DNA from: Bradyrhizobium sp. YR681
GTDB lineage: Bacteria > Pseudomonadota > Alphaproteobacteria > Rhizobiales > Xanthobacteraceae
Direction of reading: 5' to 3'
NCBI RefSeq assembly: GCF_000282615.1
Contig: NZ_AKIY01000205.1
Location: 1 to 64,000 of the forward strand
Length of the DNA: 64,000 nucleotides
Made by a program: the position numbers and the translations under genes. Below are positions 8,034-22,269 of the stretch, in pieces (position 1 is the first letter of the stretch; each line of letters starts with the position of its first letter). The notes under the pieces were generated by a model that worked only from the letters and a program-made list of their open reading frames with translations, was not told the origin of the DNA and did not search any database.

Positions 8034-11000
8034 CCGAGGGCGGGATTTCGGCACCTTTTATCCGTTATCCCATCGGCACCTCGCTGCTGATGGCCGGCAT
8101 CCTCTTCGTCGGTCTCGTCGCCTATCCCCTGCTGCCGGTCGCGCCGCTGCCGCAGGTGGACTTCCCGACCATCCAGATCACCGCCAACCTGCCGGGCGGC
8201 AGCCCCGAGACGATGGCCTCGTCGGTGGCCCAGCCGCTGGAGCGCCAGTTCGCCCAGATTCCCGGCATCGCCCAGATGACCTCGACGAGTTATCTCGGCA
8301 CCGCGTCGATCACCATCCAGTTCGACCTCAACCGCAGCATCGACGGCGCCGCCAACGACGTGCAGGGCGCCATCAACGCCGCCAGCGGTCAGTTGCCGAA
8401 GAACCTGCCCTCGCCGCCCACCTACCGCAAGGTCAACCCGGCCGACGCGCCGATCCTGCTGTTGTCGGCGACGTCGGAAACGATGCCGCTCACCAGCGTC
8501 AGCGACGCGGTCGACGCCCAGCTCGCCCAGCAGATCAGCCAGCTCTCCGGCGTCGCGCAGGTCTTCATCGGCGGCCAGCAAAAGCCGTCCATCCGCATTC
8601 AGATCGACCCGGCCAAGCTCGTCGCCAAGGGCCTGTCGATGGAGGATGTGCGCAGCCAGATCGCGATCACGACGGTCGACAGTCCGAAGGGCAACATCGA
8701 CGGACCCAAGCGCGCTTATACGATCTACGCCAACGACCAGCTCACCCAGTCCAAGGACTGGAACGACGTCATCATCGCCTATCGCAACGGCGGTCCCTTG
8801 CGCATCCGCGACATCGGCCAGGCCGTCAGCGGCGCCGAGGACGCCAAGCAGGCGGCATGGGCCAACGGCAAGCGCGGCGTGTTCCTGGTGATCTTCAAGC
8901 AGCCAGGCGCCAACGTCATCGAGACCGTCGACCGGATCAAGGCAACCCTGCCCCGGCTGGTCGCGGCGATCCCGCCCGCAATCAAGATCGAGGTCATCAG
9001 CGACCGCACCACGACGATCCGCGCCGCGGTCGAGGACGTCCAGTTCACCCTGCTCCTGACCATCGCGCTCGTGGTCATGGTCATCTTCGTCTTCCTGCGC
9101 AGCTTCTGGGCGACGGTCATCCCCACCATCACGGTTCCGCTGGCGCTGCTCGGCGCGTGCGCCCTGATGTGGGTCTGGGGCTATTCGCTCGACAATCTGT
9201 CGCTGATGGCCCTCACGATCGCGGTCGGCTTCGTCGTCGACGACGCCATCGTGATGCTCGAGAACATCACGCGCTATATCGAGGAAGGCGAATCGCCGAT
9301 GGCGGCGGCCTTCCGGGGCTCCAAGGAAATCGGCTTCACCATCATCTCGATCAGTATCTCACTGGTCGCCGTGCTGATCCCTCTGCTGCTGATGGGCGGC
9401 ATCATCGGCCGCCTGTTCCGCGAATTCGCAGTCGTGCTGGCGATGACGATCTTCGTGTCCATGTTCGTGTCGCTGACGCTGACCCCGATGATGGCCTCGC
9501 GCTTCCTGCGCGCCCATGGCGAGGTGAATCACGGCCGGTTCTACCAGTGGAGCGAGCGCGGCTTCGACGCGATGCTGCGCGGCTACGAACATGTGCTCGA
9601 CCTCGCGCTGGCCTGGCGCCGCACCACGCTCGTGATCTTCTTCGCCACGCTCGCCCTGTCGGTCTATTTGTTCGTCCTGATCCCGAAGGGCTTCTTCCCG
9701 CAGCAGGACGTCGGCCTGATCACCGCGACCTCGGAAGCCTCCCAGGACATCTCGTTCGCCGAGATGCAGCGCCGCCAGGTCGAGCTCGGCAAGATCGTGA
9801 TGGAAGATCACGACATCGCGTCGGTGGCGATGAACATCGGCGGCAGCGGCCGTGCCGGCAACAACGGCAACATGTTCATCACGCTGAAGCCGCGCGACGA
9901 GCGCGACGCCTCCGCGCAGCAGATCATCGCCCGGCTGCGTCCCAAGCTCGAGAAGGTGTCCGGCGCCCGCCTCTACATGCAGGCGGCCCAGGACGTCCGG
10001 CTCGGCGGCCGGCCGACGCGCACGCAGTTCGAATTCACCTTGCAGGACGCCGATCTCACCGAGCTCAACGACTGGGCACCGAAGATTCTGGCCAAGATGC
10101 AGACGCTGCCGCAGCTGCGCGACGTCGCCACCGACCAGCAGACGCAGGGCACTACGGTCCAGCTCAAGATCAACCGCGACACCGCCTCGCGCTACGGCAT
10201 CCAGCCGCAGGTGATCGACGACACGCTGTACGATGCGTTCGGCCAAAGGCAGGTCACGCAATATTTCACGCAGCTCAACACCTACAAGGTCATCCTCGAG
10301 ATCCTGCCGGAGCTGCAGGGCAACCTCGACAGCCTGAACAAGCTCTACGTGAAATCGCCGCTGACCGGCGACCAGGTGCCGCTGTCGACCTTCGCGACCT
10401 GGAGCACCGATCCGGTCCGCCCGCTCTCGATCAGCCACCAGGGCCAGTTCCCGGCGATCACGATCAGCTTCAACCTCGCGCAAGGCGTCGCACTCGGGCA
10501 GGCCACCGAGGCCGTGCAGAAGGCGATGGCCGATCTCGGCGCACCGCCGACGCTGAACTCGAGCTTCCAGGGCACCGCGCAGGCGTTCCAGCAGTCGCTC
10601 GGCACCGTGCCGCTGCTGATCCTCGCCGCCCTCGTCGTGGTCTATCTGATCCTCGGCATCCTCTATGAGAGCTACATCCATCCGATCACGATTCTGTCGA
10701 CCCTGCCCTCGGCGGGCGTCGGCGCGCTCGCGATCCTGATGGCGGCCGGCTTCGAGTTCAGCTTGATCGCGCTGATCGGCGTCATCCTGCTGATCGGCAT
10801 CGTGAAGAAGAACGGCATCATGATGGTGGACTTCGCGATCGCCGCCGAGCGCGACCACCACAAGACGCCGGAGGAATCGATCCGCCAGGCCGCGCTGCTG
10901 CGCTTCCGGCCGATCATGATGACGACGATGGCGGCGCTGCTCGGCGGCGTGCCGCTGATGCTCGGCCACGGCACCGGCGCCGAGATCCGCCAGCCGCTCG

Positions 11001-11176
11001 GCTACGCCATGGTCGGCGGCCTGATCGTCAGCCAGGCGCTGACGCTGTTCACGACGCCCGTCGTCTATCTCTATCTCGACAAGCTCAACAACTGGTTCTC
11101 CGACTGGGGCCGTTCGGATGACGGCGAAGGCCACGAGACACCCGAGCACAGGACCGTCAAGCAAGCCGCCGAGTGA
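8030..11176 (+). CDS. RND efflux transporter permease (MdtB/MdtC-type)
   Basis: 1048 residues, the full length of an RND pump: twelve membrane helices with two large periplasmic loops after helices 1 and 7. The proton-relay pair Asp-Asp is present around residue 404 (VGFVVDDAIVMLENI), and Lys lies in the helix-10 motif VKKNGIMMVDFA. The N-terminus and loop sequences are closer to the MdtB/MdtC group than to AcrB. MdtB and MdtC normally work together, but only one permease is encoded here, so this pump is probably a homotrimer. Substrates are unknown. Its start overlaps the adaptor gene by four bases. Confidence 0.92.
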   Translation: MTEGGISAPFIRYPIGTSLLMAGILFVGLVAYPLLPVAPLPQVDFPTIQITANLPGGSPETMASSVAQPLERQFAQIPGIAQMTSTSYLGTASITIQFDLNRSIDGAANDVQGAINAASGQLPKNLPSPPTYRKVNPADAPILLLSATSETMPLTSVSDAVDAQLAQQISQLSGVAQVFIGGQQKPSIRIQIDPAKLVAKGLSMEDVRSQIAITTVDSPKGNIDGPKRAYTIYANDQLTQSKDWNDVIIAYRNGGPLRIRDIGQAVSGAEDAKQAAWANGKRGVFLVIFKQPGANVIETVDRIKATLPRLVAAIPPAIKIEVISDRTTTIRAAVEDVQFTLLLTIALVVMVIFVFLRSFWATVIPTITVPLALLGACALMWVWGYSLDNLSLMALTIAVGFVVDDAIVMLENITRYIEEGESPMAAAFRGSKEIGFTIISISISLVAVLIPLLLMGGIIGRLFREFAVVLAMTIFVSMFVSLTLTPMMASRFLRAHGEVNHGRFYQWSERGFDAMLRGYEHVLDLALAWRRTTLVIFFATLALSVYLFVLIPKGFFPQQDVGLITATSEASQDISFAEMQRRQVELGKIVMEDHDIASVAMNIGGSGRAGNNGNMFITLKPRDERDASAQQIIARLRPKLEKVSGARLYMQAAQDVRLGGRPTRTQFEFTLQDADLTELNDWAPKILAKMQTLPQLRDVATDQQTQGTTVQLKINRDTASRYGIQPQVIDDTLYDAFGQRQVTQYFTQLNTYKVILEILPELQGNLDSLNKLYVKSPLTGDQVPLSTFATWSTDPVRPLSISHQGQFPAITISFNLAQGVALGQATEAVQKAMADLGAPPTLNSSFQGTAQAFQQSLGTVPLLILAALVVVYLILGILYESYIHPITILSTLPSAGVGALAILMAAGFEFSLIALIGVILLIGIVKKNGIMMVDFAIAAERDHHKTPEESIRQAALLRFRPIMMTTMAALLGGVPLMLGHGTGAEIRQPLGYAMVGGLIVSQALTLFTTPVVYLYLDKLNNWFSDWGRSDDGEGHETPEHRTVKQAAE

Positions 11177-11240
11177 ACTTGCGCCGCGGCTCCCGCGACG
11201 CTACAGCGAAGCCTTCGGTTCACGCCAACGCGGTTTCGCC

Positions 11241-11807
11241 ATGCCCATGCAATCCAGACTTGCCGCCCTCGCCGCCGCGCTCCTGTTGTCGACAGGGGCC
11301 GCGTATGCCCAGCAGGGCGCCAAGAAGAACGCCGCTCCCCCTGCTCCGGCCGCGCAGCCCGCGCCAGCTCCGACGCAGCCGCAGGCTGACGGCGCACAGC
11401 AGGCCGGCTGGGTCGTGCGTTGCACCAGCGTCAGCCGCGATGCCCCGCTCGAATGCGCGATGGAGCAGAACGCGGTGCTGACCAAGACCGGCCAGACCGT
11501 CGTCCTGATCAACATCCGCATCGCGCCCGACACCCGCACGCCGGTGGCGCTGCTTCAGCTGCCGCTGGGCCTCAACCTGCCCGTCGGCGCAAAGCTCCAG
11601 GTCGACGAGGGCAAGACGGTCGATCTCCAGATCCAGACCTGCGAGAACCGCGGCTGTTATGCCTCGACGCCGATCGCCGCTGACCTGCTGGCCGCCTTGC
11701 GCGCGGGCAAGCAGCTGAAGGTCTCCTTCCAGAACATGGCCAAGGAGACCATCGCGATCCCGATGCCGCTCGGCGATTTCGCGGCCGCCTACGACAAGAT
11801 CAAGTAA
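11241..11807 (+). CDS. Invasion-associated locus B (IalB) family protein
   Basis: 188 residues from the ATG at 11241. A signal peptide (residues ~1-24, ending AYAQQ) and an Ala/Pro/Gln-rich linker (~25-52) precede the IalB domain (~53-188), which starts with the usual GWVVRC and has four Cys arranged as in the family (WVVRCTS, LECAMEQN, QTCENRGCYAS). IalB proteins are periplasmic or surface proteins of uncertain molecular role, common in Hyphomicrobiales. The gene follows the RND permease by 64 bases and may be cotranscribed. The frame is open further upstream into the permease gene; the start was chosen from the signal peptide. Confidence 0.85.
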   Translation: MPMQSRLAALAAALLLSTGAAYAQQGAKKNAAPPAPAAQPAPAPTQPQADGAQQAGWVVRCTSVSRDAPLECAMEQNAVLTKTGQTVVLINIRIAPDTRTPVALLQLPLGLNLPVGAKLQVDEGKTVDLQIQTCENRGCYASTPIAADLLAALRAGKQLKVSFQNMAKETIAIPMPLGDFAAAYDKIK

Positions 11808-11849
11808 GGCTGCTCCCGCCTCCTCCTGGAGTGCACGCCTCTCACCTCG

Positions 11850-14138
11850 TCATTGCCGCGCCATTTGCGCATTGCCGACGGCATCGCCGTCGAGCTTCTG
11901 GTCGCTGTGCATGGTGACGGTGACGCGCAGCAGCCGGCCTTCGAATTCGAACGGCGCCTCGTAATGCGACACGGGGCTGCCGCGGTCGCGGCCGATGTCG
12001 AGGCCGGACCAGGAGATCAGCGTGTGGAAGCCGAGCTGGGTCTGCAGCGATCCCGCCTTCTCGCCATCGATCAGCAGCGTGTATTGGGTGACGCCGGTGC
12101 GCGAGCCCTTTGCCGGCGGCTCCTTGCGCAGGAGACGTTCGACATGAACCCCGAGCCGCCGCGCGCTCGACGCCACTTTCCGGTCCGAGCGCACGATCTG
12201 GTGGCTGCCACCGATGTTGAGGTCGTGCACGAGGTGGCCATCCCTGACATAGAGGCTGTAGCCTGACGTCGCATCGCCGTGCGAGATCAGCACGCCATCG
12301 GCACCCGCTTCGTCGATCTCGACATGCGCCTCGATCGTGTAGCTGCGGCTGCGCACGTCGGGTGCAACGTCGGTCGGCACGTGGCCCATGCCGGCATGGA
12401 AGACGAAATGGTGGCGCGCTCCGTGGAAGCGCGCGGCGTTCTCCGCAAAGCGCGGCCCGAAGCGGTCGTCGAGCGGCAGCACATTGTGCTTCTCGGCCTC
12501 CGCCCACCACGCTGCGATCATCCGCGCAAGACGCTCCGGCTCCCTCGCGGCGAGATCATCGGTCTCGGAGAAGTCCTGGTCGAGATGGAACAGCTCCCAC
12601 CTATCGTTCTCGAACGGCGTGCCCGACGGATGGAACGCGACCGCCTTCCATCCGGCCTGCCAGAGGCCGCGATGGCCGAACATCTCGAAATATTGCGGCG
12701 AGCTCTTCGAGGGCGCGGACGCATCGGTGATCGAGCGCGCGAAACTCTCGCCTTCCAGCGGCATCTGCGGGCAGCCCGCGATCGTTGGGGGCGCCTCGAT
12801 CCCGATCAGTTCCAGCAGCGTCGGCGTGAGATCGCAGGCATGCACGAACTGGTGCCGCAGCTCGCCCTTCGCCGCGATCCGCTTCGGCCAGTTGACGACA
12901 AAGGGATCGCGGATGCCGCCGCCATGGGTATTTTGTTTGTAGCGGCGCAGCGGCGTGTTCGAGGCCATCGCCCAGCCATGCGGGAAATTGCTGTGGGTGT
13001 CGGGTCCGCCGATGTCGTCGATGCGGGCGAGTTTTTCGGCGATCGGCTCCGGCTTGAAATTGAAGGGCCCCATCGCGTTGACGAAGCCGAGCGGCCCGCC
13101 CTCCTGGCTCGCGCCATTGTCCGACATCACGATGATCACGGTGTTGTCGCGGATGCCGGCGGTCTCCAGAAACGCGACGAGGCGCGCCAGATGCCGGTCG
13201 GAATGATCGAGCATGCCGGCAAAGGCGGCCTGCAGGCGCGTGAAGACGCGGCGCTCGTGGGCCGAATGCTCCTCCCAGGCCTTCACGCCGTCGTTGCGCG
13301 GCGGCATTCGCGTTGCCTCAGGCACCAGCCCCATCGCCTTCTGGCGCGACAGCCGTTGCTCGCGCTCGACGTCCCAGCCGTGCGCGAAGGCGGCGTCGTA
13401 ACTCCGGATGATATCCATCGGTGCCTGGTGCGGCGCATGGCAGGCACCGAGCGCGACCCAGGTGAGCCAGGGAATGTCGGGCCGGTCGGCCTGATGGTCG
13501 CCGATGAAGCGGATCGACTGGTCGATCAGATCCTCGGTCAGATGATAGCCGTCGGCGTAAGTCCCAGGTGGATCGACATGCGTGTTGTCCGAGACGAGCT
13601 CCGGTGCATATTGATCGGTCTCGGCGTCGAGGAAGCCGTAGAACCGGTCAAAACCGCGGCCGAGCGGCCAGCCGTCGAACGGACCGGTGGCGCCGCTCTC
13701 GGTCAGCGGCGTGACGTGCCATTTGCCGACCATGTAATTGCGATAGCCGTGCATACGCAGCATCTCGGCGAGCGTCCCCGCCTCGCGCGCGATCTTGCCG
13801 CGATAGCCGGGGTAGCCTGAATCGAAATTGGCAAGGCATCCGACGCCGACGGAATGATGGTTGCGCCCGGTGAGCAGCGCAGCCCGCGTCGTCGAGCACA
13901 TCGCGGTGGTGTGGAAACCGGAGTAGCGCAGGCCCTCCGCGGCGAGCCGATCGATGGTCGGCGTCCTGATCGCCGAGCCGTAGCAGCCGAAATCGGAGAA
14001 GCCGACGTCGTCGAACAGCACGACCAGGATGTTCGGCGCGCCCTCGGGCGGCCGCGGCGCCTCCGGCCACCAGGGTTTCGAATCCGCAACCGTCTTGCCG
14101 ACGGTGCCGCGGAACGGCGTGCCGCTGCCTGCGCTCAT
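11850..14138 (-). CDS. Arylsulfatase-type sulfatase
   Basis: 762 residues from the ATG at 14138. Sulfatase fold: NILVVLFDDVGFSDFGCYG with the metal-binding Asp pair (~43-44), then the active-site region HTTAMCSTTRAALLTGRNHHS. Cys81 is the residue expected to be converted to formylglycine. The motif is CSTTR rather than the usual CxPxR, so Thr replaces the Pro. A second metal site is visible in IVMSDNGASQEGG. The C-terminal ~200 residues are beyond the core of short sulfatases and match the long arylsulfatases of soil bacteria. No signal peptide is apparent. It hydrolyses sulfate esters, substrate unknown. It is divergent from the TetR gene, with a palindromic operator between. Confidence 0.9.
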   Translation of the reverse strand: MSAGSGTPFRGTVGKTVADSKPWWPEAPRPPEGAPNILVVLFDDVGFSDFGCYGSAIRTPTIDRLAAEGLRYSGFHTTAMCSTTRAALLTGRNHHSVGVGCLANFDSGYPGYRGKIAREAGTLAEMLRMHGYRNYMVGKWHVTPLTESGATGPFDGWPLGRGFDRFYGFLDAETDQYAPELVSDNTHVDPPGTYADGYHLTEDLIDQSIRFIGDHQADRPDIPWLTWVALGACHAPHQAPMDIIRSYDAAFAHGWDVEREQRLSRQKAMGLVPEATRMPPRNDGVKAWEEHSAHERRVFTRLQAAFAGMLDHSDRHLARLVAFLETAGIRDNTVIIVMSDNGASQEGGPLGFVNAMGPFNFKPEPIAEKLARIDDIGGPDTHSNFPHGWAMASNTPLRRYKQNTHGGGIRDPFVVNWPKRIAAKGELRHQFVHACDLTPTLLELIGIEAPPTIAGCPQMPLEGESFARSITDASAPSKSSPQYFEMFGHRGLWQAGWKAVAFHPSGTPFENDRWELFHLDQDFSETDDLAAREPERLARMIAAWWAEAEKHNVLPLDDRFGPRFAENAARFHGARHHFVFHAGMGHVPTDVAPDVRSRSYTIEAHVEIDEAGADGVLISHGDATSGYSLYVRDGHLVHDLNIGGSHQIVRSDRKVASSARRLGVHVERLLRKEPPAKGSRTGVTQYTLLIDGEKAGSLQTQLGFHTLISWSGLDIGRDRGSPVSHYEAPFEFEGRLLRVTVTMHSDQKLDGDAVGNAQMARQ

Positions 14139-15009: not shown

Positions 15010-15083
15010 TGGCTGGGGAACCTGGATTCGAACCAAGACAAACAGAGTCAGAGTCTGTTGTGCTACCGTTACACCATTCCCCA
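15010..15083 (-). tRNA. tRNA-Gln (anticodon CUG)
   Basis: 74 nucleotides including an encoded CCA. The acceptor stem TGGGGAA pairs with TTCCCCA, the discriminator is G, the D-arm contains GGTGTAACGGTAGCAC, the anticodon arm ACAGA-CTCTGAC-TCTGT has CTG in its loop, and the T-arm loop is TTCGAAT. The TGGGGAA start is typical of bacterial tRNA-Gln. It decodes CAG, the preferred Gln codon in GC-rich genomes. Confidence 0.95.
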
Positions 15084-15271: not shown

Positions 15272-15592
15272 CTAATGCGGACGTCCAATGTTGACGACAA
15301 TCTCGCCCTTGCAAGTTGCGATCATGACCTGACCGTATTCATCCTGCGGCGGGCTCTCCTCGTAGCGGAGCGGGATCGTCGTGATCTCCTCCTGCGCCGT
15401 GCCGGCCGGTCGCTCGGCGTCCACGTCGAGGATCAGGATCTTCGGATTGATACCCTGCGGCGAGCGCTTGGTCAGCCGGGCCTGCCAGCCATTGGTCGGC
15501 ACCCGCACGTCGCCGACCATGACGAGCCTGGGCGGCGCGCCCGGCGCCCGGTCGATCCAGGCCTTGAAGGTGTTTCTCAGCAGGACAGTCAT
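15272..15592 (-). CDS. Conserved hypothetical protein (106 aa)
   Basis: 106 residues from the ATG at 15592, which is preceded by a good ribosome-binding site (AGGAGG, eight bases before). A beta-rich small protein: RLVMVGDVRVPTNGWQARL, then KILILDVDAERP and EEITTIPLRYEE, ending GEIVVNIGRPH. No domain recognised. It lies between tRNA-Gln and the haem peroxidase gene, divergent from the latter. Third-position G/C bias supports coding. Confidence 0.72.
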   Translation of the reverse strand: MTVLLRNTFKAWIDRAPGAPPRLVMVGDVRVPTNGWQARLTKRSPQGINPKILILDVDAERPAGTAQEEITTIPLRYEESPPQDEYGQVMIATCKGEIVVNIGRPH

Positions 15593-15857
15593 GACGCGTC
15601 CCTCCTGTGCCAAGTTGCGTTCACCACGTCGCATTTGCCAAATCACGCGATCCCTCGGTCGCGGGCGAAACATAGGCGAGCCGGGCGAAGCTGATCGTGA
15701 ATGGCCCGTGAATGCGGTGCGCGCGATCCGCCCGCCCCGCCACGCTCGCGTCCGGGATCGGACCGGCGGATCGAAGCGCCTGTCCGTGTGCAGGATCGAT
15801 TCACGTTCAAATCACGGTGTTGAAAATAATGTCGCTCATGATTTTGGGAGGTCAAAG

Positions 15858-17660
15858 ATGGGCAGACATGGTGGCGGCTTCTCCATCGCTCGGGAGCAAC
15901 TCGGCGGCGACACGAACTCCGACGCAACGCTGGCGGGGACCGGCGATCGCGAATTATCGGCCCGGCTAGGGGCCGATGCAGCTCGGGCGCGAGCATCCGC
16001 CCCGTCCGAGCGAGGCATTTCGGGCTTCCGGCACTTCCTGTCCGAGCTCGATACGTTGCCGCTGGACAAACGCTTCAAGGTCGACGGCGACGATCCGCTC
16101 AAATCGGACGCGAGCAAGGAGCGCCTGCGGAGCCTGATGGACCGCCTGGCCAAGCGCATGCGCGTTCCCCCGGTGTGGGAGGGCGGCCAGGGTCCGCTGG
16201 AGAACAGCGACATTCCGGCCGGATATACCTATCTCCTCCAGCTCGTCGCACACGACCTCGTCCAGACGTCATTCCCGATATCGGAGCTCGAAAATACCGC
16301 AACCGGCGTGCGCAACGATCGGGCCTACCGTTTGAAGCTGGATACGATCTACGGCGGCGGCCCCGAAGTGTGCCCGTTTGCCTATGAGGCAAGACCGAAA
16401 TCGTCCCGCTCGAAACTGCGTCTGGGCAGCGGGACCAGCAGCGCGGACCAGGTCGAGATGACGCCGAAAGGCCGCGACATCGCGCGTGTTGCCTGCCCGT
16501 GGGATCCGAACAGTCAGCCGCACCGGCTGACCGAGGTTCTGATCGCCGACCAGCGCAACGACGATCATGCCATCCTGTCGCAGCTCACGACCCTGTTTCA
16601 CCATCTGCACAACGGTCTGCTGGCAAGGCTCTCCCCGCCCCCCGGGGGCACGACCGAGTCCGAAGCCGTTGCCATCGACAAGGCGTTTCTCTGCGCGCGC
16701 GGCGCGGCCACGCTCATCTATCGCAACATCATACGCCGCGATTTGCTGAAGAGAATCCTGAACCGCGACGTCTACGCCAGGTACAATGTGGACCGGCCTC
16801 ACTTCCTGAGCGTTTCCTCCACGCGGCAACCGTATCGCGGCTCGCTGATCCCGCTGGAGTTCACGCACGCCGCGTTCCGCTTCGGCCACGCGATGGTCCG
16901 CGACAGTTACAGGATCAACCCCACCAACGCGTTCCCGCTCGGAGAGGTCCTGCGGACGACGTCCAATTCCGCCCCGAACAATATGCCGCTGCCGCGGAAA
17001 TGGATCGCAAGCTGGTCGCACTTCTTCGACGTGCCGGGCAAGCCGCAACCCCAGCCCAGCATGCGCATCGGCCCCCATTTCAGCGGACAGCTGCACGACA
17101 GGTCGCTGTTTCCGCCGATCTCCCCCGACGGCGCATGGGGGCTCGCATACAAGGACCTGATGAGTGCCGGGTTCGTCGGCCTGTGGTCGGTGGACAGCCT
17201 CGTCGAGGAAATCCGCTCGCGGCAGCCTTCCCTGATCGGCCGCGATCGATTGCTCGAAGATCGCAGCTATCGTGTCGGACGGTTGCGCACCTGGCTGGAG
17301 CAGAATCGCGGCGATCTGACCGACGCCGATATCGAGACCCTGGCGAATGACCCGCCTCTGCCCTTCTACATTCTATTCGAAGCAGCCGCAGGGCCTGACG
17401 ATCCGGCCAAGCAGGGCAAGACGCTGGGCGTGCTCGGATCGATCATCGTGGCGGAGGTCATCTTCGGTGCGATGCTCGAAGACGGAATACCGGCCGGCTC
17501 CTGGTCGAGCAGCCTCGGAGAATCGCTGTCCCGCCTTTCGACGCGCATCTACGCCGCCAACCGCCTCGCTTTCGTGCCGGAGATCGAGAATATGGGCGAC
17601 CTGGTCCTCTTCATCGCCGATATCGCCAACCTGCAAGACGCTGATCCGACTTTTCTCTGA
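15858..17660 (+). CDS. Animal-type haem peroxidase
   Basis: 600 residues from the ATG at 15858, preceded by GGGAGG. The key elements of the animal haem peroxidase (An_peroxidase) superfamily are present: distal His at ~132 (LLQLVAHDLVQTS), catalytic Arg at ~233 in QRNDDHAILSQLTTLFHHLHN, and proximal haem-ligand His at ~344 in AAFRFGHAMVRDSY. Bacterial members (peroxicin-like) oxidise halides or phenolic or amino-acid side chains; the substrate here is unknown. No classical signal peptide is seen. It is followed 41 bases later by the 130-residue leader-like gene on the same strand, and lies opposite a SARP regulator and a YcaO gene. This suggests an oxidative tailoring role, which is inference. 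Confidence 0.9.
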   Translation: MGRHGGGFSIAREQLGGDTNSDATLAGTGDRELSARLGADAARARASAPSERGISGFRHFLSELDTLPLDKRFKVDGDDPLKSDASKERLRSLMDRLAKRMRVPPVWEGGQGPLENSDIPAGYTYLLQLVAHDLVQTSFPISELENTATGVRNDRAYRLKLDTIYGGGPEVCPFAYEARPKSSRSKLRLGSGTSSADQVEMTPKGRDIARVACPWDPNSQPHRLTEVLIADQRNDDHAILSQLTTLFHHLHNGLLARLSPPPGGTTESEAVAIDKAFLCARGAATLIYRNIIRRDLLKRILNRDVYARYNVDRPHFLSVSSTRQPYRGSLIPLEFTHAAFRFGHAMVRDSYRINPTNAFPLGEVLRTTSNSAPNNMPLPRKWIASWSHFFDVPGKPQPQPSMRIGPHFSGQLHDRSLFPPISPDGAWGLAYKDLMSAGFVGLWSVDSLVEEIRSRQPSLIGRDRLLEDRSYRVGRLRTWLEQNRGDLTDADIETLANDPPLPFYILFEAAAGPDDPAKQGKTLGVLGSIIVAEVIFGAMLEDGIPAGSWSSSLGESLSRLSTRIYAANRLAFVPEIENMGDLVLFIADIANLQDADPTFL

Positions 17661-17701
17661 CAGCCGGCAATTCCGCCGGTCGCAAACCAAGGGAGATCGC
17701 A

Positions 17702-18094
17702 ATGCAAACCGAGATGTTCGACATCGTGAACTATGATGTGTGGGGTGACCTCGTGAAGAAATGGGCTCGCGACGCCAAGACGCGTCCGGCCACCATCGCG
17801 GAATTCGAGCAACAGCTCGACCAGGCCGGCGTCATGGCGAAATTTCCCCAACCGTTCACCGAGATTGTTTTCATCCAGCCCGATTACAGGAGCGGCACGC
17901 TGCTCATCAAGCTGCCGGATGCCTCCGTGCTCGCCGAGACCGAAAAGGAATTGATGGGCTCGGCCAACTACCCGCTCCCGCTGTTCTACACGGACGACAT
18001 GAAGGACAGCAATCTGGAGAACGACACCCCCGCCGGCAGGCTGCTGTTTCATTCCAAGCGCGTCGGCGAGTACACTATCAAGTTCTGCGGATAA
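17702..18094 (+). CDS. 130-aa protein with NHLP-like N-terminal half, putative modified-peptide precursor
   Basis: 130 residues, start preceded by GGGAG, 41 bases after the peroxidase stop. No firm family. Residues ~14-73 follow the pattern of nitrile-hydratase-type leader peptides: a Trp-containing helix (WGDLVKKWARD), a second helix ending in Gly (FEQQLDQAGV), a P..TEIVFIQPD strand and a closing strand TLLIKLPD. Residues ~85-130 (ANYPLPLFYTDD..., ending KFCG) would then be the core, with a single Cys near the end. YcaO cyclodehydratases act on such precursors, and a YcaO gene is 2.1 kb away. Alternatively it is simply a small globular partner of the peroxidase. The coding frame itself is well supported. 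Confidence 0.75.
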   Translation: MQTEMFDIVNYDVWGDLVKKWARDAKTRPATIAEFEQQLDQAGVMAKFPQPFTEIVFIQPDYRSGTLLIKLPDASVLAETEKELMGSANYPLPLFYTDDMKDSNLENDTPAGRLLFHSKRVGEYTIKFCG

Positions 18095-18098
18095 ACGG

Positions 18099-18117
18099 AC
18101 GCGTGCTCACCACGCGT
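18099..18117. terminator. Hairpin between convergent genes
   Basis: ACGCGTG at 18099-18105 pairs with CACGCGT at 18111-18117 across a five-base loop. It sits between the stop of the 130-residue gene and the stop codon of the SARP regulator, which lies in its loop. A bidirectional terminator is possible, but there is no T tract. Confidence 0.4.
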
Positions 18118-20251
18118 GATGCCTGAAGTCGACAACCGGGACGCCTGCGCCGCCGATGCCGTCGCGCAGGCGCTCCCAATCCTCACGACGGGCAATGGGA
18201 TGGGCATGGAGGAACCAGAGCGCGATCTCCCGGTCGGTCGGCGGCTTGCCGAACCATATCGCGCGGATGCCGTCGAGGAACTTCCTGGCCTCGAGGCGCG
18301 CCTCGTCCGTCCTTCCGAGATGAAACAGCGCGGCGGTCTTCCAGCCCGGAAGCGTCTTCGCGACGTTGTTGGCGCGATCGATCCCCTCGATCGCTTCCAG
18401 GTAATTTCCTCGCATGAATTGAAGCACGGCACGATAGGGCCAATGCAGCGGCGGCGGTGCCCAGAACACCTTGAGAGCTTCCGCCACGAGTTCATTGCCG
18501 CGCTCGAAATTGCCGCAAAAGCCCTGACAGGAAGCCCCGGACAGCAGCGTCCAGGGATCGTTGCCGTTGAGTTCGCATGCGAGGTCGATATGGGCGCTGG
18601 CTTCCGAATATTGCATCAGCATCGCCTGCGACCAGCCGAGGCAGAGCTGGGCCCGGGAATCGACGGGATCGAGCTGGACCGCCGTCCTTGCAAGCTCAAG
18701 CGTGGACCGCGCTTTCGTCAGGTCGCGGAACAAGCCGGGAAAGACGAAATGCTCGGTGTTGTTCATTTGAACGAGTGCACTGTAGCTCGGCGAGAAGTTC
18801 GGCGCGACGGCGATCGCATCGGTCAGAAGCGCTATCGACTCGCGCCAGTGTTCGGCGCTGAAGCTCCCGAAGCTCGCCTGCGCGCGAAGCCAGCGGTCAT
18901 AGATGTCCAGAGACACGTCCGGCGCCGTCGCCACGCGCGTCAATCGCTCGGTCGACAGATAGACGTTCACCGACAGCGCGGTGCGCTGAACGATCCTCTG
19001 CTGCACCTGGAACCAGTTCTCGAGCTTCAGCTCGAACGTATCGCTCCAGATATAGACGCCGGTATTCGTCTCGCGCAGGGTCAACACCATGCTGATCGTG
19101 TCACCGGCCTGATAGGCGGTCGCAGCGATGCTGTAGCGCGACGCTCCCGCACGCTCTCCCGACGCCAGCGGCTGCTCCGCCGTGCCGTCCCCGACATACC
19201 ACTCGCGGAATTTGGTCAGGCAGGCGATGAAGTGATGGCGAAAACCCGTCACGAGGTGGACGCGGTCCGCGCTGACGCCGTTCATGCTGAACGGATCGAC
19301 CAGGATCGCGATCTTGGCCGCCGTTCGGGATGATGTTGGCGATGGTCTCGGCGCCTCGGCGCCAGCCGACGCCTGCGCGCCGTCCCGCTGCACTGGACCG
19401 ACCTCAACGGATGTGACTTCGTCCTCGAACTGGCCGTTCTTGATGTCGGCGATCAATTGCTGCGTCTTGACCGAAGGCTCCATCCCGTATTCTTCGTCGA
19501 GGATGTTCCACAAGGTCTTGTAGGCACGGAGCGCGCCGGACAGGTCGCCCTCTTCCGCGCGCGTCTGCATCGCATAGCGGCACGCTTCCTCGTGGGTCGC
19601 GTCGAGGCTCAGGATCGCCTCGGCCAGCCCTCGCCGGTTCGCCGCGGGAAGCCCGACATTCCTGAGGCCGGCCTCGAGGGCCCGCAAGATGCGGTCATGG
19701 AAGGTCTGCCGCTTGGCGAGAAGCCAGACGCGGAACGACGGGTCGATGTCGTCGAGGCCCGCGAGCAGGGTCTCCATCAGGCCGGGCGCGCTCATCAGCA
19801 GCGGATGCGCATGCTGGGCTTCAGCCTCGCGCACGGCGTCGAGCAGATCGACGTGAATCCGCTGGCGCTCCATTTCGACGAGCATCTTCTCGATCTGAAA
19901 TCCGTCGTATCCCGCCTCCAGGAACGTTTCCCGCAACTCATGGAGGACCTGACGAAGCGATGCACGCGCCTTGTACTCGTCGGACTCGCTCCACAGCAGC
20001 CCAACCAGACGCTCGCGCGTCTCCTGGTGGCGGTCCGTCAATGCCAGGTAGCCGAGAACCGCCCGCGACTTCCGGCTCTTGATCCGTATCTCCCGCCCCG
20101 CGAACGCGACGGAGAGACCGCCAAAAACAGAAATCGTCAGGCTTTCGCGCGGCTTGGGATTTCCACCATCCCTTGCTGGGGATTTCGAGAGAGGTGCTCG
20201 AGCGTTCACTTTCGATCCGCCCCGATAAACCGCACTTACGAATAGAAGCAA
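18107..20251 (-). CDS. SARP/BTAD-type transcriptional regulator with TPR-like C-terminus
   Basis: Up to 714 residues. The order is an OmpR-like winged helix (~38-120: ISVFGGLSVAFAGREIRIKSRKSRAVLGYLAL, then RERLVGLLWSES...RASLRQVLHELRE), a bacterial activation domain (BTAD, ~125-280, including AMQTRAEEGDLSGALRAYKTLWNILDEEYG), a TolB-N/CadC-like segment (~315-460), and TPR-like helices to the end. SARP-type activators typically control secondary-metabolite clusters, mostly in actinobacteria. It directly follows ycaO on the same strand, so it probably regulates the YcaO/peroxidase locus. The start is uncertain: the TTG at 20251 abuts the ycaO stop; the GTG at 20209 has a weak upstream GGGGCGG. 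Confidence 0.82.
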   Translation of the reverse strand: MLLFVSAVYRGGSKVNARAPLSKSPARDGGNPKPRESLTISVFGGLSVAFAGREIRIKSRKSRAVLGYLALTDRHQETRERLVGLLWSESDEYKARASLRQVLHELRETFLEAGYDGFQIEKMLVEMERQRIHVDLLDAVREAEAQHAHPLLMSAPGLMETLLAGLDDIDPSFRVWLLAKRQTFHDRILRALEAGLRNVGLPAANRRGLAEAILSLDATHEEACRYAMQTRAEEGDLSGALRAYKTLWNILDEEYGMEPSVKTQQLIADIKNGQFEDEVTSVEVGPVQRDGAQASAGAEAPRPSPTSSRTAAKIAILVDPFSMNGVSADRVHLVTGFRHHFIACLTKFREWYVGDGTAEQPLASGERAGASRYSIAATAYQAGDTISMVLTLRETNTGVYIWSDTFELKLENWFQVQQRIVQRTALSVNVYLSTERLTRVATAPDVSLDIYDRWLRAQASFGSFSAEHWRESIALLTDAIAVAPNFSPSYSALVQMNNTEHFVFPGLFRDLTKARSTLELARTAVQLDPVDSRAQLCLGWSQAMLMQYSEASAHIDLACELNGNDPWTLLSGASCQGFCGNFERGNELVAEALKVFWAPPPLHWPYRAVLQFMRGNYLEAIEGIDRANNVAKTLPGWKTAALFHLGRTDEARLEARKFLDGIRAIWFGKPPTDREIALWFLHAHPIARREDWERLRDGIGGAGVPVVDFRHHAW

Positions 20252-21595
20252 CTATAACAAACTAATCCCACGTGTATAGGCATCGCCCCCTCCGGTCCGG
20301 CGGCGCGCGGACAGGAGGCGTTCGCTCGCGACTTCGGACGGCTCCATCTGGAGCGCGGGCGCGGCGACCCGCACGACGGAAATTCCGAATATGGGACGGG
20401 TCAGGTCGATGGCGAACGTCTCGATGCCCCTGGCCGACAGTCTCCCGACCAGGGCGTCGAGCTGCCGCGCCGGCGTGTCCGGGCCAAGCTCGGAGACAGA
20501 ACGGCCCGGCGCGACCGGATGCAGCAGCTCGCAACTCGCCGCATCGATCAGCGTGCTGCGGGCGACGTGGCGATGATCATATTCATTCAGCGCCGCATCG
20601 CCTCCCTCCTGCCGCTTTTGCTCCACTACGGCATAGGCCAACTCCATCTGGCACATCTCCATCAGCGCGGAGCCGACCGCATGTTCGACGCTCGGACGGG
20701 CCGCCAGCCCGCAGGCGAAGCCGCGTCCATCGGCGCGGCAGGACATCGCCACGATGCAGGGAACGTCCATGTCGGTGGTGATGTCGAGGAGCCAGGTCAT
20801 CCTCGTCGTGACGCCGCGGCGCGCCTGTGCCACCAGAGCCGCGGCGGCCGCCACCGCCTGCCCTTCGAGCACGACCAGCCGCCCACGAATGCCGCCGCGC
20901 CACCACAGACTGGCGGCATCCCTCTCGATCAGTTCCAGCATCCCGTGCAATGCCGCCGCCTCGAACGAGGGGCCGGCCGCGCAGCCCGAGCTCAGACTGA
21001 AGGGCGGCGCGAGCGCACTCCGTTCAGGCGTTCGCCGCAGGCACAAATCCGCGGGAAACGGCACCGACCGGCCGCTCGAGAGCTGCGTCGCGTCGATCCA
21101 GTCGACGACGCCATGCGCCGACAATCGCATGAATTCGGCAAGGACCGCCCGGGAGGCGGGATCGAACGCGGCAAGACCATCTTCGATCGCGCCTCCCCGA
21201 AGCCGATCCAGCGCAGTCTCGAACTGCGAGAGATACTCGACCCCTTCCCCGACACATGACTCGAACGCCTGGCGAAGCGACAGGCCGGCACCGGACGCAC
21301 TCGAACGAGCCTGGTGCGCGAAGGTGGAATCGACACCGGCCGCGCTGATGTCCGCGCCGAAGAACGAGACTCCCGGCGCATCACGCGAGGCCAGCTGGAA
21401 GACGTCGGAAAATCTGGCGGCCGCCTGGAGCAACGCAATGCGATTCCGCGTTTGCCGCGGCTCCGCCGCGCCCGGCGGCAGGTATTCGAGCTTCTCGAGA
21501 ATGGTTTCGAGGTCGCGGTCGCGGCCATATGAAGATGGGCCCGCCAGATATGCGGCCAACCGCTCGAACTGACTGGTTGCGTTCGATGCGTCCAT
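20252..21595 (-). CDS. Stand-alone YcaO family cyclodehydratase
   Basis: 447 residues. YcaO signatures are clear: SGAGLSLRQAFESCVGEGVEY (~101-121), GCAAGPSFEAAALHGMLELIERDA (~204-227) with the ATP/Mg-binding Glu residues, and GFACGLAARPSVEHAVGSALMEMCQMEL (~292-319). YcaO enzymes activate backbone amides with ATP to form azolines, thioamides or amidines in peptides. There is no fused or adjacent ThiF-like (E1) leader-binding partner and no TfuA gene, and the C-terminus lacks the PxPxP ending of azoline-forming cyclodehydratases. The product type is therefore open. It is cotranscribed with the SARP regulator downstream. Confidence 0.9.
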   Translation of the reverse strand: MDASNATSQFERLAAYLAGPSSYGRDRDLETILEKLEYLPPGAAEPRQTRNRIALLQAAARFSDVFQLASRDAPGVSFFGADISAAGVDSTFAHQARSSASGAGLSLRQAFESCVGEGVEYLSQFETALDRLRGGAIEDGLAAFDPASRAVLAEFMRLSAHGVVDWIDATQLSSGRSVPFPADLCLRRTPERSALAPPFSLSSGCAAGPSFEAAALHGMLELIERDAASLWWRGGIRGRLVVLEGQAVAAAAALVAQARRGVTTRMTWLLDITTDMDVPCIVAMSCRADGRGFACGLAARPSVEHAVGSALMEMCQMELAYAVVEQKRQEGGDAALNEYDHRHVARSTLIDAASCELLHPVAPGRSVSELGPDTPARQLDALVGRLSARGIETFAIDLTRPIFGISVVRVAAPALQMEPSEVASERLLSARRRTGGGDAYTRGISLL

Positions 21596-21756: not shown

Positions 21757-22269
21757 ATGGCCGGTATGTGGAAAAATGGTTTTGTCATTGCAATGGCTGC
21801 GGAATTCTCTTTCGCGGCCTATCACCGACCGATTTCGATCCGACGCAAGACCCGACGATGGATCATCGTATCGCGCTGCGGTCCGGGCTCGGAATTCATC
21901 ACGATCGCAAGTGCGGCCGGCAGGGTCGAGCCGCACGCAGACGCCCCGATCGGCCTGGCGCCGATCAACACGGCCGTCGGCATTCTCCTGTCGCAAACCG
22001 CAGAGGATCTCACCTTCCTGATGGTTCGGCAGCCGCCGACCCATTTCCCGATCGCCGGGGCATTTCTCCCGACCGATGGCTACTGTCGGATTTTCGAGTC
22101 ACAGGGGTCGTTTCGGCTGCGGAGCGAAGGACGCCACGCACATGGCGCCAGACGCCCCGATAGCCACGTCCGCAGCGACTTGCCGGATCCCGCGCCCAAC
22201 GCGCGGCGCGCGCTGGGCTGGCACATCGAGGCTGTCAAGCACAATTGGGTCGGCGAGTTCATCAGTTGA
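21757..22269 (+). CDS. Possible orphan protein (170 aa)
   Basis: An open frame of 170 codons divergent from the YcaO gene. Its second half shows the G/C third-position bias of real genes here, but the first 40 codons do not. No domain is recognised; there are Cys at ~41 and ~109 and an Arg/His-rich C-terminal half. No convincing ribosome-binding site precedes the ATG. It may be a real accessory gene of the YcaO locus, a decayed gene or chance. The rest of the 753-base stretch 21596-22348 holds nothing else I can support. Confidence 0.3.
   Translation: MAGMWKNGFVIAMAAEFSFAAYHRPISIRRKTRRWIIVSRCGPGSEFITIASAAGRVEPHADAPIGLAPINTAVGILLSQTAEDLTFLMVRQPPTHFPIAGAFLPTDGYCRIFESQGSFRLRSEGRHAHGARRPDSHVRSDLPDPAPNARRALGWHIEAVKHNWVGEFIS

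Follow-up and report, generated by a model that had tools for sequence, protein, structure and literature searches.

A 64,000-nucleotide stretch of DNA from Bradyrhizobium sp. YR681 (contig NZ_AKIY01000205.1, positions 1–64000; genome 7.8 Mb), hereafter the window, carries a compact group of genes in which an animal-type haem peroxidase, a small conserved protein, a SARP-like regulator, and a stand-alone YcaO enzyme lie side by side. The peroxidase gene (15858–17660, plus strand, 600 residues) is followed after 41 bases by that of a 130-residue protein, p130 (17702–18094, plus strand), a putative substrate or precursor with the C terminus RVGEYTIKFCG. The conserved tail of p130, a putative core, is encoded by its last 13 codons and the stop (18053–18094, plus strand). 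Across a gap of 12 bases p130 converges on the regulator, a (winged helix)-BTAD-TPR protein (18107–20251, minus strand), which stands behind the YcaO gene (20252–21595, minus strand, 447 residues). Position 20251 was assigned mechanically, as the first start codon following a stop, and the true start of the regulator probably lies downstream of it. Coordinates and strands of all four genes are as given in the original prediction for this DNA, which missed a fifth conserved gene, p170 (21757–22269, plus strand). p170 and YcaO lie divergently on opposite strands, with 161 bases between their starts.

The peroxidase and the YcaO protein are bona fide members of their superfamilies. The peroxidase matches An_peroxidase (PF03098) at 34.5 bits against a Pfam cut-off of 25, and its key columns are invariant in an alignment of 23 sequences; the distal Gln, His, and Asp, the catalytic Arg, and the proximal Arg-His pair are kept without exception among the 79 or 80 of 81 rows with a residue aligned there. 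At the position equivalent to Asp94 of human myeloperoxidase, the Asp that ties the haem in that enzyme, 72 of 79 sequences have Ala. The cassette enzyme is like other bacterial members of the animal-haem-peroxidase (peroxidase-cyclooxygenase) superfamily in its PF03098 match and its intact distal and proximal residues, and differs from them in this Ala and in its linkage to YcaO and a Cys-tailed protein. Two further An_peroxidases are encoded in the genome, and the other cassette families are absent from the 14 kb inspected around each. The YcaO protein matches PF02624 at 178.5 bits (E = 2.8e-52; cut-off 25.7) over positions 1–324 of 325 and is the sole match to this model in the genome at E ≤ 0.001. 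Its nearest solved relatives, by a phmmer search of the PDB, are the YcaO domains of TruD (3.3e-16) and LynD (1.5e-15).

We assessed conservation of the neighborhood from two directions. Matches to p130 were found in 8 of 248 genomes of the family, and a p130 profile matched 23 of 347 genomes, representing 14 of 134 genera, of the order. All neighborhoods from these searches, together with the window, make up a p130-first set of 27 loci. In every one of them the regulator adjoins p130 and a YcaO gene is present in the locus, one of the YcaO genes being broken (L015), and in 23 the peroxidase adjoins p130. The placement of p130 beside YcaO that had been read from a single genome therefore holds among its relatives.

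The peroxidase-first set comprises 79 loci obtained with a peroxidase profile from named genomes, taken from the best 80 of 201 matching stretches; it shares genomes with the p130-first set (L013/L081, L014/L121, L044/L095, and others), and the two are not additive. These loci derive from Bradyrhizobium, Belnapia, Roseomonas, other Acetobacteraceae, Reyranella, Nisaea, Thalassobaculum, Stappia, Hyphomicrobium, Nitratireductor, a Nitrosovibrio bin, and others. Peroxidase, p130, regulator, and YcaO occur together in 64 of them: 41 hold all five families and 23 hold four, p170 being unmatched by the profile used. The rest consist of peroxidase with p130 and regulator (7), with p130 and YcaO (1), with p130 (1), or alone (6: L113, L114, L116, L117, L125, and L133). 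Among the 57 loci of at least 18.5 kb, p130 was found in 55, the regulator in 54, YcaO in 52, and p170 in 35, and p130 is convergent on the regulator in all 71 peroxidase-first loci that hold both. The four-gene neighborhood is a conserved cassette whose range extends far beyond the genus and takes in many bacteria of soil and water.

Three of the seven loci with peroxidase, p130, and regulator that lack YcaO (L073, L077, L111) are short contigs ending in or just after the regulator. At the other four the contigs run on; L086 and L124 are two cassettes under one isolate name, and L115 and L126 belong to two other isolates. All three of these genomes encode a YcaO elsewhere, which in the L115 genome adjoins p170 (L205). 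In L015 (genome G138) the cassette YcaO is reduced to two short pieces (11707–12133), and another YcaO of this subfamily, its frame open, lies elsewhere in the genome, with p130 absent from the 17 kb inspected there. YcaO and p130 can evidently co-occur unlinked. Peroxidases of the family that lack p130 and YcaO in their locus (L113, L114, L116, L117, L125; around 8700–10700) appear to stand in a different setting, as their surroundings differ: by eye, those of L113, L116, and L125 lie between metallo-hydrolase-like and aldo-keto reductase-like genes. Complete cassettes exist elsewhere in the genomes of L116 (L206) and L125 (L207), and a YcaO search of the L113 genome returned no match.

As a control for chance association, we clustered 625 predicted genes of at least 90 residues from 34 hand-picked taxon groups among these loci. 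Four families are widespread: peroxidase (33 groups), regulator (33), p130 (30), and YcaO (23). Because the loci were picked by p130 or peroxidase, those two counts are partly built in, whereas the regulator and YcaO counts are not. The next most frequent families are p170 and a short-chain-dehydrogenase-like family (5 groups each), followed by one in 4 groups and four in 3; flanking genes change between loci and no other family recurs widely. By eye, the eleven listed families include no transporter, protease, methyltransferase, or SagB-type dehydrogenase, with the exception of a solute-binding-protein-like family in 3 groups.

Divergent forms of the cassette occur on plasmids. Of nine plasmid regions opened from YcaO and peroxidase matches, with p130 unused in the search, three carry it: Paroceanicella profunda pD4M1F, Mesorhizobium huakuii pMhuNZP2235a, and Rhodobacteraceae QY30. 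The regulator profile matches all three, with BTAD above the Pfam cut-off in QY30 only, and the Paroceanicella YcaO has a partial Pfam match. The small proteins end in DFRLGDYVLQHCD (P. profunda), CRLGDYVMSRCK (M. huakuii), and IATFAFTRCR (QY30). The first two score weakly with the p130 profile (37 and 24 bits) and fit a slightly relaxed form of the tail motif described below, with Leu at the second place and Val after the Tyr; the QY30 protein is unmatched by the profile and keeps, of the motif, only the penultimate Cys. In the P. profunda and M. huakuii cassettes (L214, 6956–12348; L215, 6728–12400) the annotation reads peroxidase, hypothetical proteins, and YcaO-like protein. The QY30 variant (L213, 2836–8801) consists of an An_peroxidase, a stand-alone YcaO, a cyclase-BTAD-TPR protein, and a 183-residue protein. 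The last of these gives a weak EF-hand match and has Cys-Arg at its end but nothing else of the p130 tail, and no relative of it was found in 385 genomes of the class or on the other plasmids opened. Among the other plasmid loci, L216–L218 carry a more distant peroxidase and, by profile, no YcaO, p130, or regulator. The proposed linkage of peroxidase and YcaO stands for most loci, as it does in the 64 of 79 above, and fails in these three, in the six lone peroxidases, and in one genus without the peroxidase.

p130 matches nothing in Pfam or other family libraries, and its conservation is concentrated at one end. In an alignment of 57 sequences (the window protein and 56 of 76 from named loci, near-duplicates omitted), mean column identity is 27%; R120, Y124, and C129 are nevertheless invariant, positions 121–123 are nearly so, and the last 20 window residues align without gaps. 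The tail motif R[IV][GASE][DE]Y[TSAC]xxxCx, with its penultimate Cys, is present in 28/28 p130-first and 76/76 peroxidase-first sequences, the two sets overlapping. The final residue varies (A, G, Q, V, E, M, T, K, H, I, or S), and the tail Cys is the sole Cys in 38 of the 57 proteins. Tandem p130 genes with the same tail occur in L112, L120, and L121 (about 10600–11550). An AlphaFold2 (AF2) model of p130 has a predicted local distance difference test score (pLDDT) of 85.6 and a predicted template modeling score (pTM) of 0.74; its last predicted helix spans residues 110–126, which would leave Cys129 within four residues after it. A Foldseek search of the PDB with this model gave nothing at E ≤ 0.001 (best E 5.1 among the 14 matches listed), and structural re-alignment to 20 chains gave none at Z ≥ 2.

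The regulator exceeds the BTAD cut-off (28.6 bits against 22.1), its TPR and winged-helix matches falling below theirs; for Trans_reg_C (cut-off 26.2) the window protein scores 13.5 bits and that of L064 23.9. A relative of the cassette regulator (193 bits) is encoded in Paracoccus kondratievae (L212, 1080–5584), divergent to a YcaO-TfuA pair, and from this locus regulators of the type may go with other YcaO systems as well. The p170 family recurs in Bradyrhizobium, where it lies beside YcaO, and in Acetobacteraceae, where it lies beside the peroxidase; a richer profile adds L106, L110, and L122. The window protein is predicted to be an 8-stranded β-barrel (AF2 pLDDT 81.2, pTM 0.80), and a fold search with it finds general β-barrels with a best Z of 8.6, which is not distinctive.

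The original prediction described p130 as NHLP-like, a label that no family library or fold search bears out. None of nine p130 sequences matched TIGR03793 at E ≤ 10 and none matched TIGR03795, and membership of p130 in the NHLP family was accordingly set aside. A profile combining the C-terminal part of nitrile hydratase (NHase) with two NHLPs aligned to p130 residues 31–86 with 57% probability (p = 1e-4; score 28.6), above the best of 60 shuffled (22.8) and 18 unrelated (15.4) decoy windows. The full NHase profile gave 2.5%. The NHase C-part by itself reached 4.3%, with 1 of 40 shuffles doing as well, and the two NHLPs by themselves 6.9% (0 of 40); NHLP-Burk alone gave 0.6% (2 of 40), NHLPs with NHLP-Burk 0.9% (0 of 40), and all three components together 34% (0 of 40). 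Neither NHLP nor NHase appears in the Foldseek list for p130, absence from such a list excluding nothing. With borderline profile support and the curated models unmatched, a distant kinship of p130 with NHLPs is possible.

Authentic NHLP systems provided controls. TIGR03795 found no match in 150 genomes of the phylum, a search made uninformative by its failure in 14 control genomes also. TIGR03793 matched in 44 of 299 genomes, in none above its cut-off; matches coinciding with PF02979 are nitrile hydratase alpha, and two NHLP loci, L195 and L196, are among the remainder. At L195 (9577–13856) an NHLP-type precursor (TIGR03793, 48.1 bits; cut-off 50.9) ends in Cys-Cys and has as neighbors one protein matching both TIGR03882 and TIGR03604 and a nitroreductase-family protein. 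The plasmid locus L210 encodes two TIGR03795 precursors (154.9 and 161.3 bits), L211 looks alike, and L212 is the YcaO-TfuA locus mentioned above.

On balance, we lean toward a reading in which p130 is a ribosomally encoded substrate whose tail is modified by YcaO at the penultimate Cys and whose product is then oxidized by the peroxidase. The first ~115 residues of p130 would fold into the region that is recognized, and the chemistry would fall on the last ~11. YcaO would bind p130, activate the backbone amide before the penultimate Cys with ATP, and most likely close a thiazoline. The peroxidase, as the only oxidoreductase of the cassette, would then oxidize the tail, either from thiazoline to thiazole or at a Cys/Tyr pair. 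In classical azole pathways the thiazoline-to-thiazole step is the task of a flavin dehydrogenase; a SagB-type dehydrogenase model found none in the window genome and matched controls over its cut-off, and by analogy with NHLP pathways we infer that the peroxidase stands in here for their flavin oxidase. The BTAD-TPR protein would regulate expression, and p170, where present, may assist YcaO or bind the product.

Modification of the tail Cys is the simplest reading because p130 joins a folded part to an invariant Cys placed after the last helix, and because p170 is the only other conserved small protein of the cassette that might be a substrate. The original proposal that p130 is a YcaO substrate fits the invariant Cys-x tail. 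Tyr124, at position −7 counted from the C terminus, would be a natural peroxidase target, yet it is kept in the genus without the peroxidase and is replaced by Phe in QY30, so that oxidation of a Cys-derived ring is at least as likely. As the tail hardly varies, one conserved group, protein-bound or cofactor-like, is more probable than a family of antibiotics. That the locus is a secondary-metabolite cluster making a variable product is doubtful, given a near-invariant putative core and, by eye, no recurrent transporter or protease.

A number of observations weigh against this interpretation. The four p130 loci without a peroxidase belong to one genus, and the peroxidase profile at E ≤ 0.001 had no match in 4/4 of its genomes, where the tail, including the Tyr, is present; the peroxidase is therefore dispensable there. 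Of the 79 peroxidases, six have no other cassette family in their locus; a contig edge truncates one of these loci. In QY30, which does have a peroxidase, the Cys-x-ending protein carries Phe at the Tyr position, and this argues against Tyr as an obligatory target. In the model, R120–Y124 fall inside the last predicted helix, so that some motif residues may be conserved for folding. The YcaO protein scores 145.3 bits on TIGR03604, below the cut-off of 219.25 for the azoline-forming SagD family, whereas the controls L195 (246.7) and L210 (253.9) exceed it. Recognition is a further difficulty: by the curated family models p130 has no recognized leader; no E1-like/RRE leader-binding partner was found with TIGR03882 in the genome (68 candidates scored), a model that matches L195 and L210 and matched control genomes only under its cut-off; and no TfuA (PF07812) was found in the genome, controls being matched over cut-off. 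Nor, by eye, does a protease or exporter recur near the cassette.

Two features of the YcaO frames were set aside. A C-terminal PxPxP, a mark of azoline formation, is absent from all 65 cassette YcaO frames, but it is absent from the NHLP-type controls L195, L210, and L211 as well and decides nothing. Apparent N-terminal extensions in L043 and L045 were taken as chance open frames, Pfam finding the YcaO domain alone.

The missing partner proteins could instead mean that p130 is itself the partner. It would then act as an adaptor that replaces the E1-like/RRE or TfuA protein and brings another protein or peptide to YcaO, with its tail serving as a docking arm or metal ligand. The predicted fold of p130, the placement of R120–Y124 in a helix of the model, and a tail that is near invariant where most RiPP (ribosomally synthesized and post-translationally modified peptide) cores are not all fit this role. 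We nonetheless consider it unlikely: besides p170, no small protein recurs among genes of at least 90 residues, an invariant Cys one residue from the C terminus is a likely reaction site, and the tandem p130 genes of L112, L120, and L121 suit substrates better.

Alternatively, and somewhat less probably still, p130 could remain permanently modified. YcaO would alter the tail to a thioamide, thiazoline, or other group, and the uncleaved protein, partnered by the peroxidase, would work as a small redox or metal protein. The near-invariance of the tail agrees with this, as does the lack, by eye, of a recurring protease or exporter, and YcaO action on a whole protein has a precedent in the thioglycine of McrA; the window YcaO scores 59.1 bits on TIGR03266, far below the cut-off of 365. 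The genus without the peroxidase speaks against such a partnership.

That the locus is an ordinary NHLP-type azole (TOMM) cluster which has lost its dehydrogenase and E1 domain we regard as improbable. The mixed NHase–NHLP profiles exceed their decoys, in one form all of them and with NHLP-Burk all 40 shuffles, and in each NHLP-Burk precursor pair one member likewise has Cys or Cys-Cys at its end. Set against this, the nine p130 sequences match neither TIGR03793 nor TIGR03795, the fold list holds no NHLP or NHase, the NHase C-part and NHLP-Burk taken singly are equaled by shuffles (1/40 and 2/40), and genuine loci such as L195 and L210 have one protein above the cut-offs of both TIGR03882 and TIGR03604, which the cassette does not. 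Finally, chance adjacency of four unrelated genes, a general possibility, is refuted by a layout conserved in 64 of 79 loci from many genera amid changing flanks.

Our preferred scheme, with p130 as the modified substrate, resembles several known systems in part. NHLP-Burk TOMM clusters (TIGR03795, BMA_0021/BMA_0022 family) have a precursor of ~115–120 residues beside YcaO, arranged in tandem with one of the pair ending in Cys or Cys-Cys; such pairs are described in Haft 2010 (PMC2887384). Their YcaO protein also matches the leader-binding model TIGR03882 (L210), a protein kinase-AAA protein is the neighbor at L211, the cassette peroxidase, regulator, and p130 profiles find nothing at L210 or L211, and p130 lacks the TIGR03795 match. 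Proteusin/NHLP systems with MprC-type YcaO likewise combine a large structured leader with YcaO action on a Cys near the C terminus; the enzyme is reported to act on the single Cys of a designed core and a flavin oxidase to complete the thiazole (PMC12455567). MprC has an RRE domain and works with the flavin oxidase MprD (PMC12455567), whereas neither TIGR03882 nor the SagB-type dehydrogenase was found in the window genome. YcaO-TfuA thioamidation clusters (thioamitides) share a small YcaO without fused E1 and a proteobacterial distribution, and one of them (L212) lies beside the relative of the cassette regulator; they differ in that TfuA is not found in the window genome, and L212 is without the cassette peroxidase or p130. 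The cyanobactin heterocyclases TruD and LynD provide the nearest solved YcaO-domain structures, to whose YcaO part alone the window protein aligns, their other domains and the cyanobactin proteases not being seen in the cassette.

Two further features precede the cassette in the window. A tRNA-Gln gene (CTG; 15010–15083, minus strand) lies ~0.8 kb upstream and may mark an integration site. Between it and the peroxidase is a 133-residue open reading frame (15272–15673, minus strand) that has no family match and no tblastn match in seven other cassette loci (L011–L017).

YcaO proteins of peptide pathways usually act with a known recognition partner and, where azoles are formed, with a flavin dehydrogenase. 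For NHLPs this is documented in PMC12455567. In the cassette, the peroxidase holds a fixed place beside the putative substrate while those usual partners are unmatched in the genome. We know of no other peroxidase-YcaO pair, and this would be the first if the tail is modified. The pairing of YcaO with an animal-type haem peroxidase looks undescribed: a search of the open-access literature, a scope that leaves most subscription journals and preprints outside, found no description of a YcaO and haem (or heme) peroxidase pair. An antiSMASH survey of Acetobacteraceae type strains names Roseomonas mucosa as the sole species with a YcaO cluster (PMC8776678). Five Belnapia loci carry the cassette (L094, L098–L101), in strains that may or may not be among those surveyed; the cassette may escape current cluster-finding tools.

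More tentatively, and as a possibility on which we would not insist, the cassette could define a new class of ribosomal maturation, distributed across Alphaproteobacteria and their plasmids, in which a haem peroxidase rather than a flavin dehydrogenase completes what a stand-alone YcaO has begun at a folded protein's penultimate Cys, yielding one conserved C-terminal group of a cofactor- or metal-binding-like kind. If so, the familiar arrangement of a leader plus a variable core would be inverted, with the recognition part varying and the modified tail fixed. The nearly invariant 11-residue tail with its penultimate Cys offers one precise peptide to look for, and, if it is modified, its constancy would favor a conserved product with a physiological role over an antibiotic.

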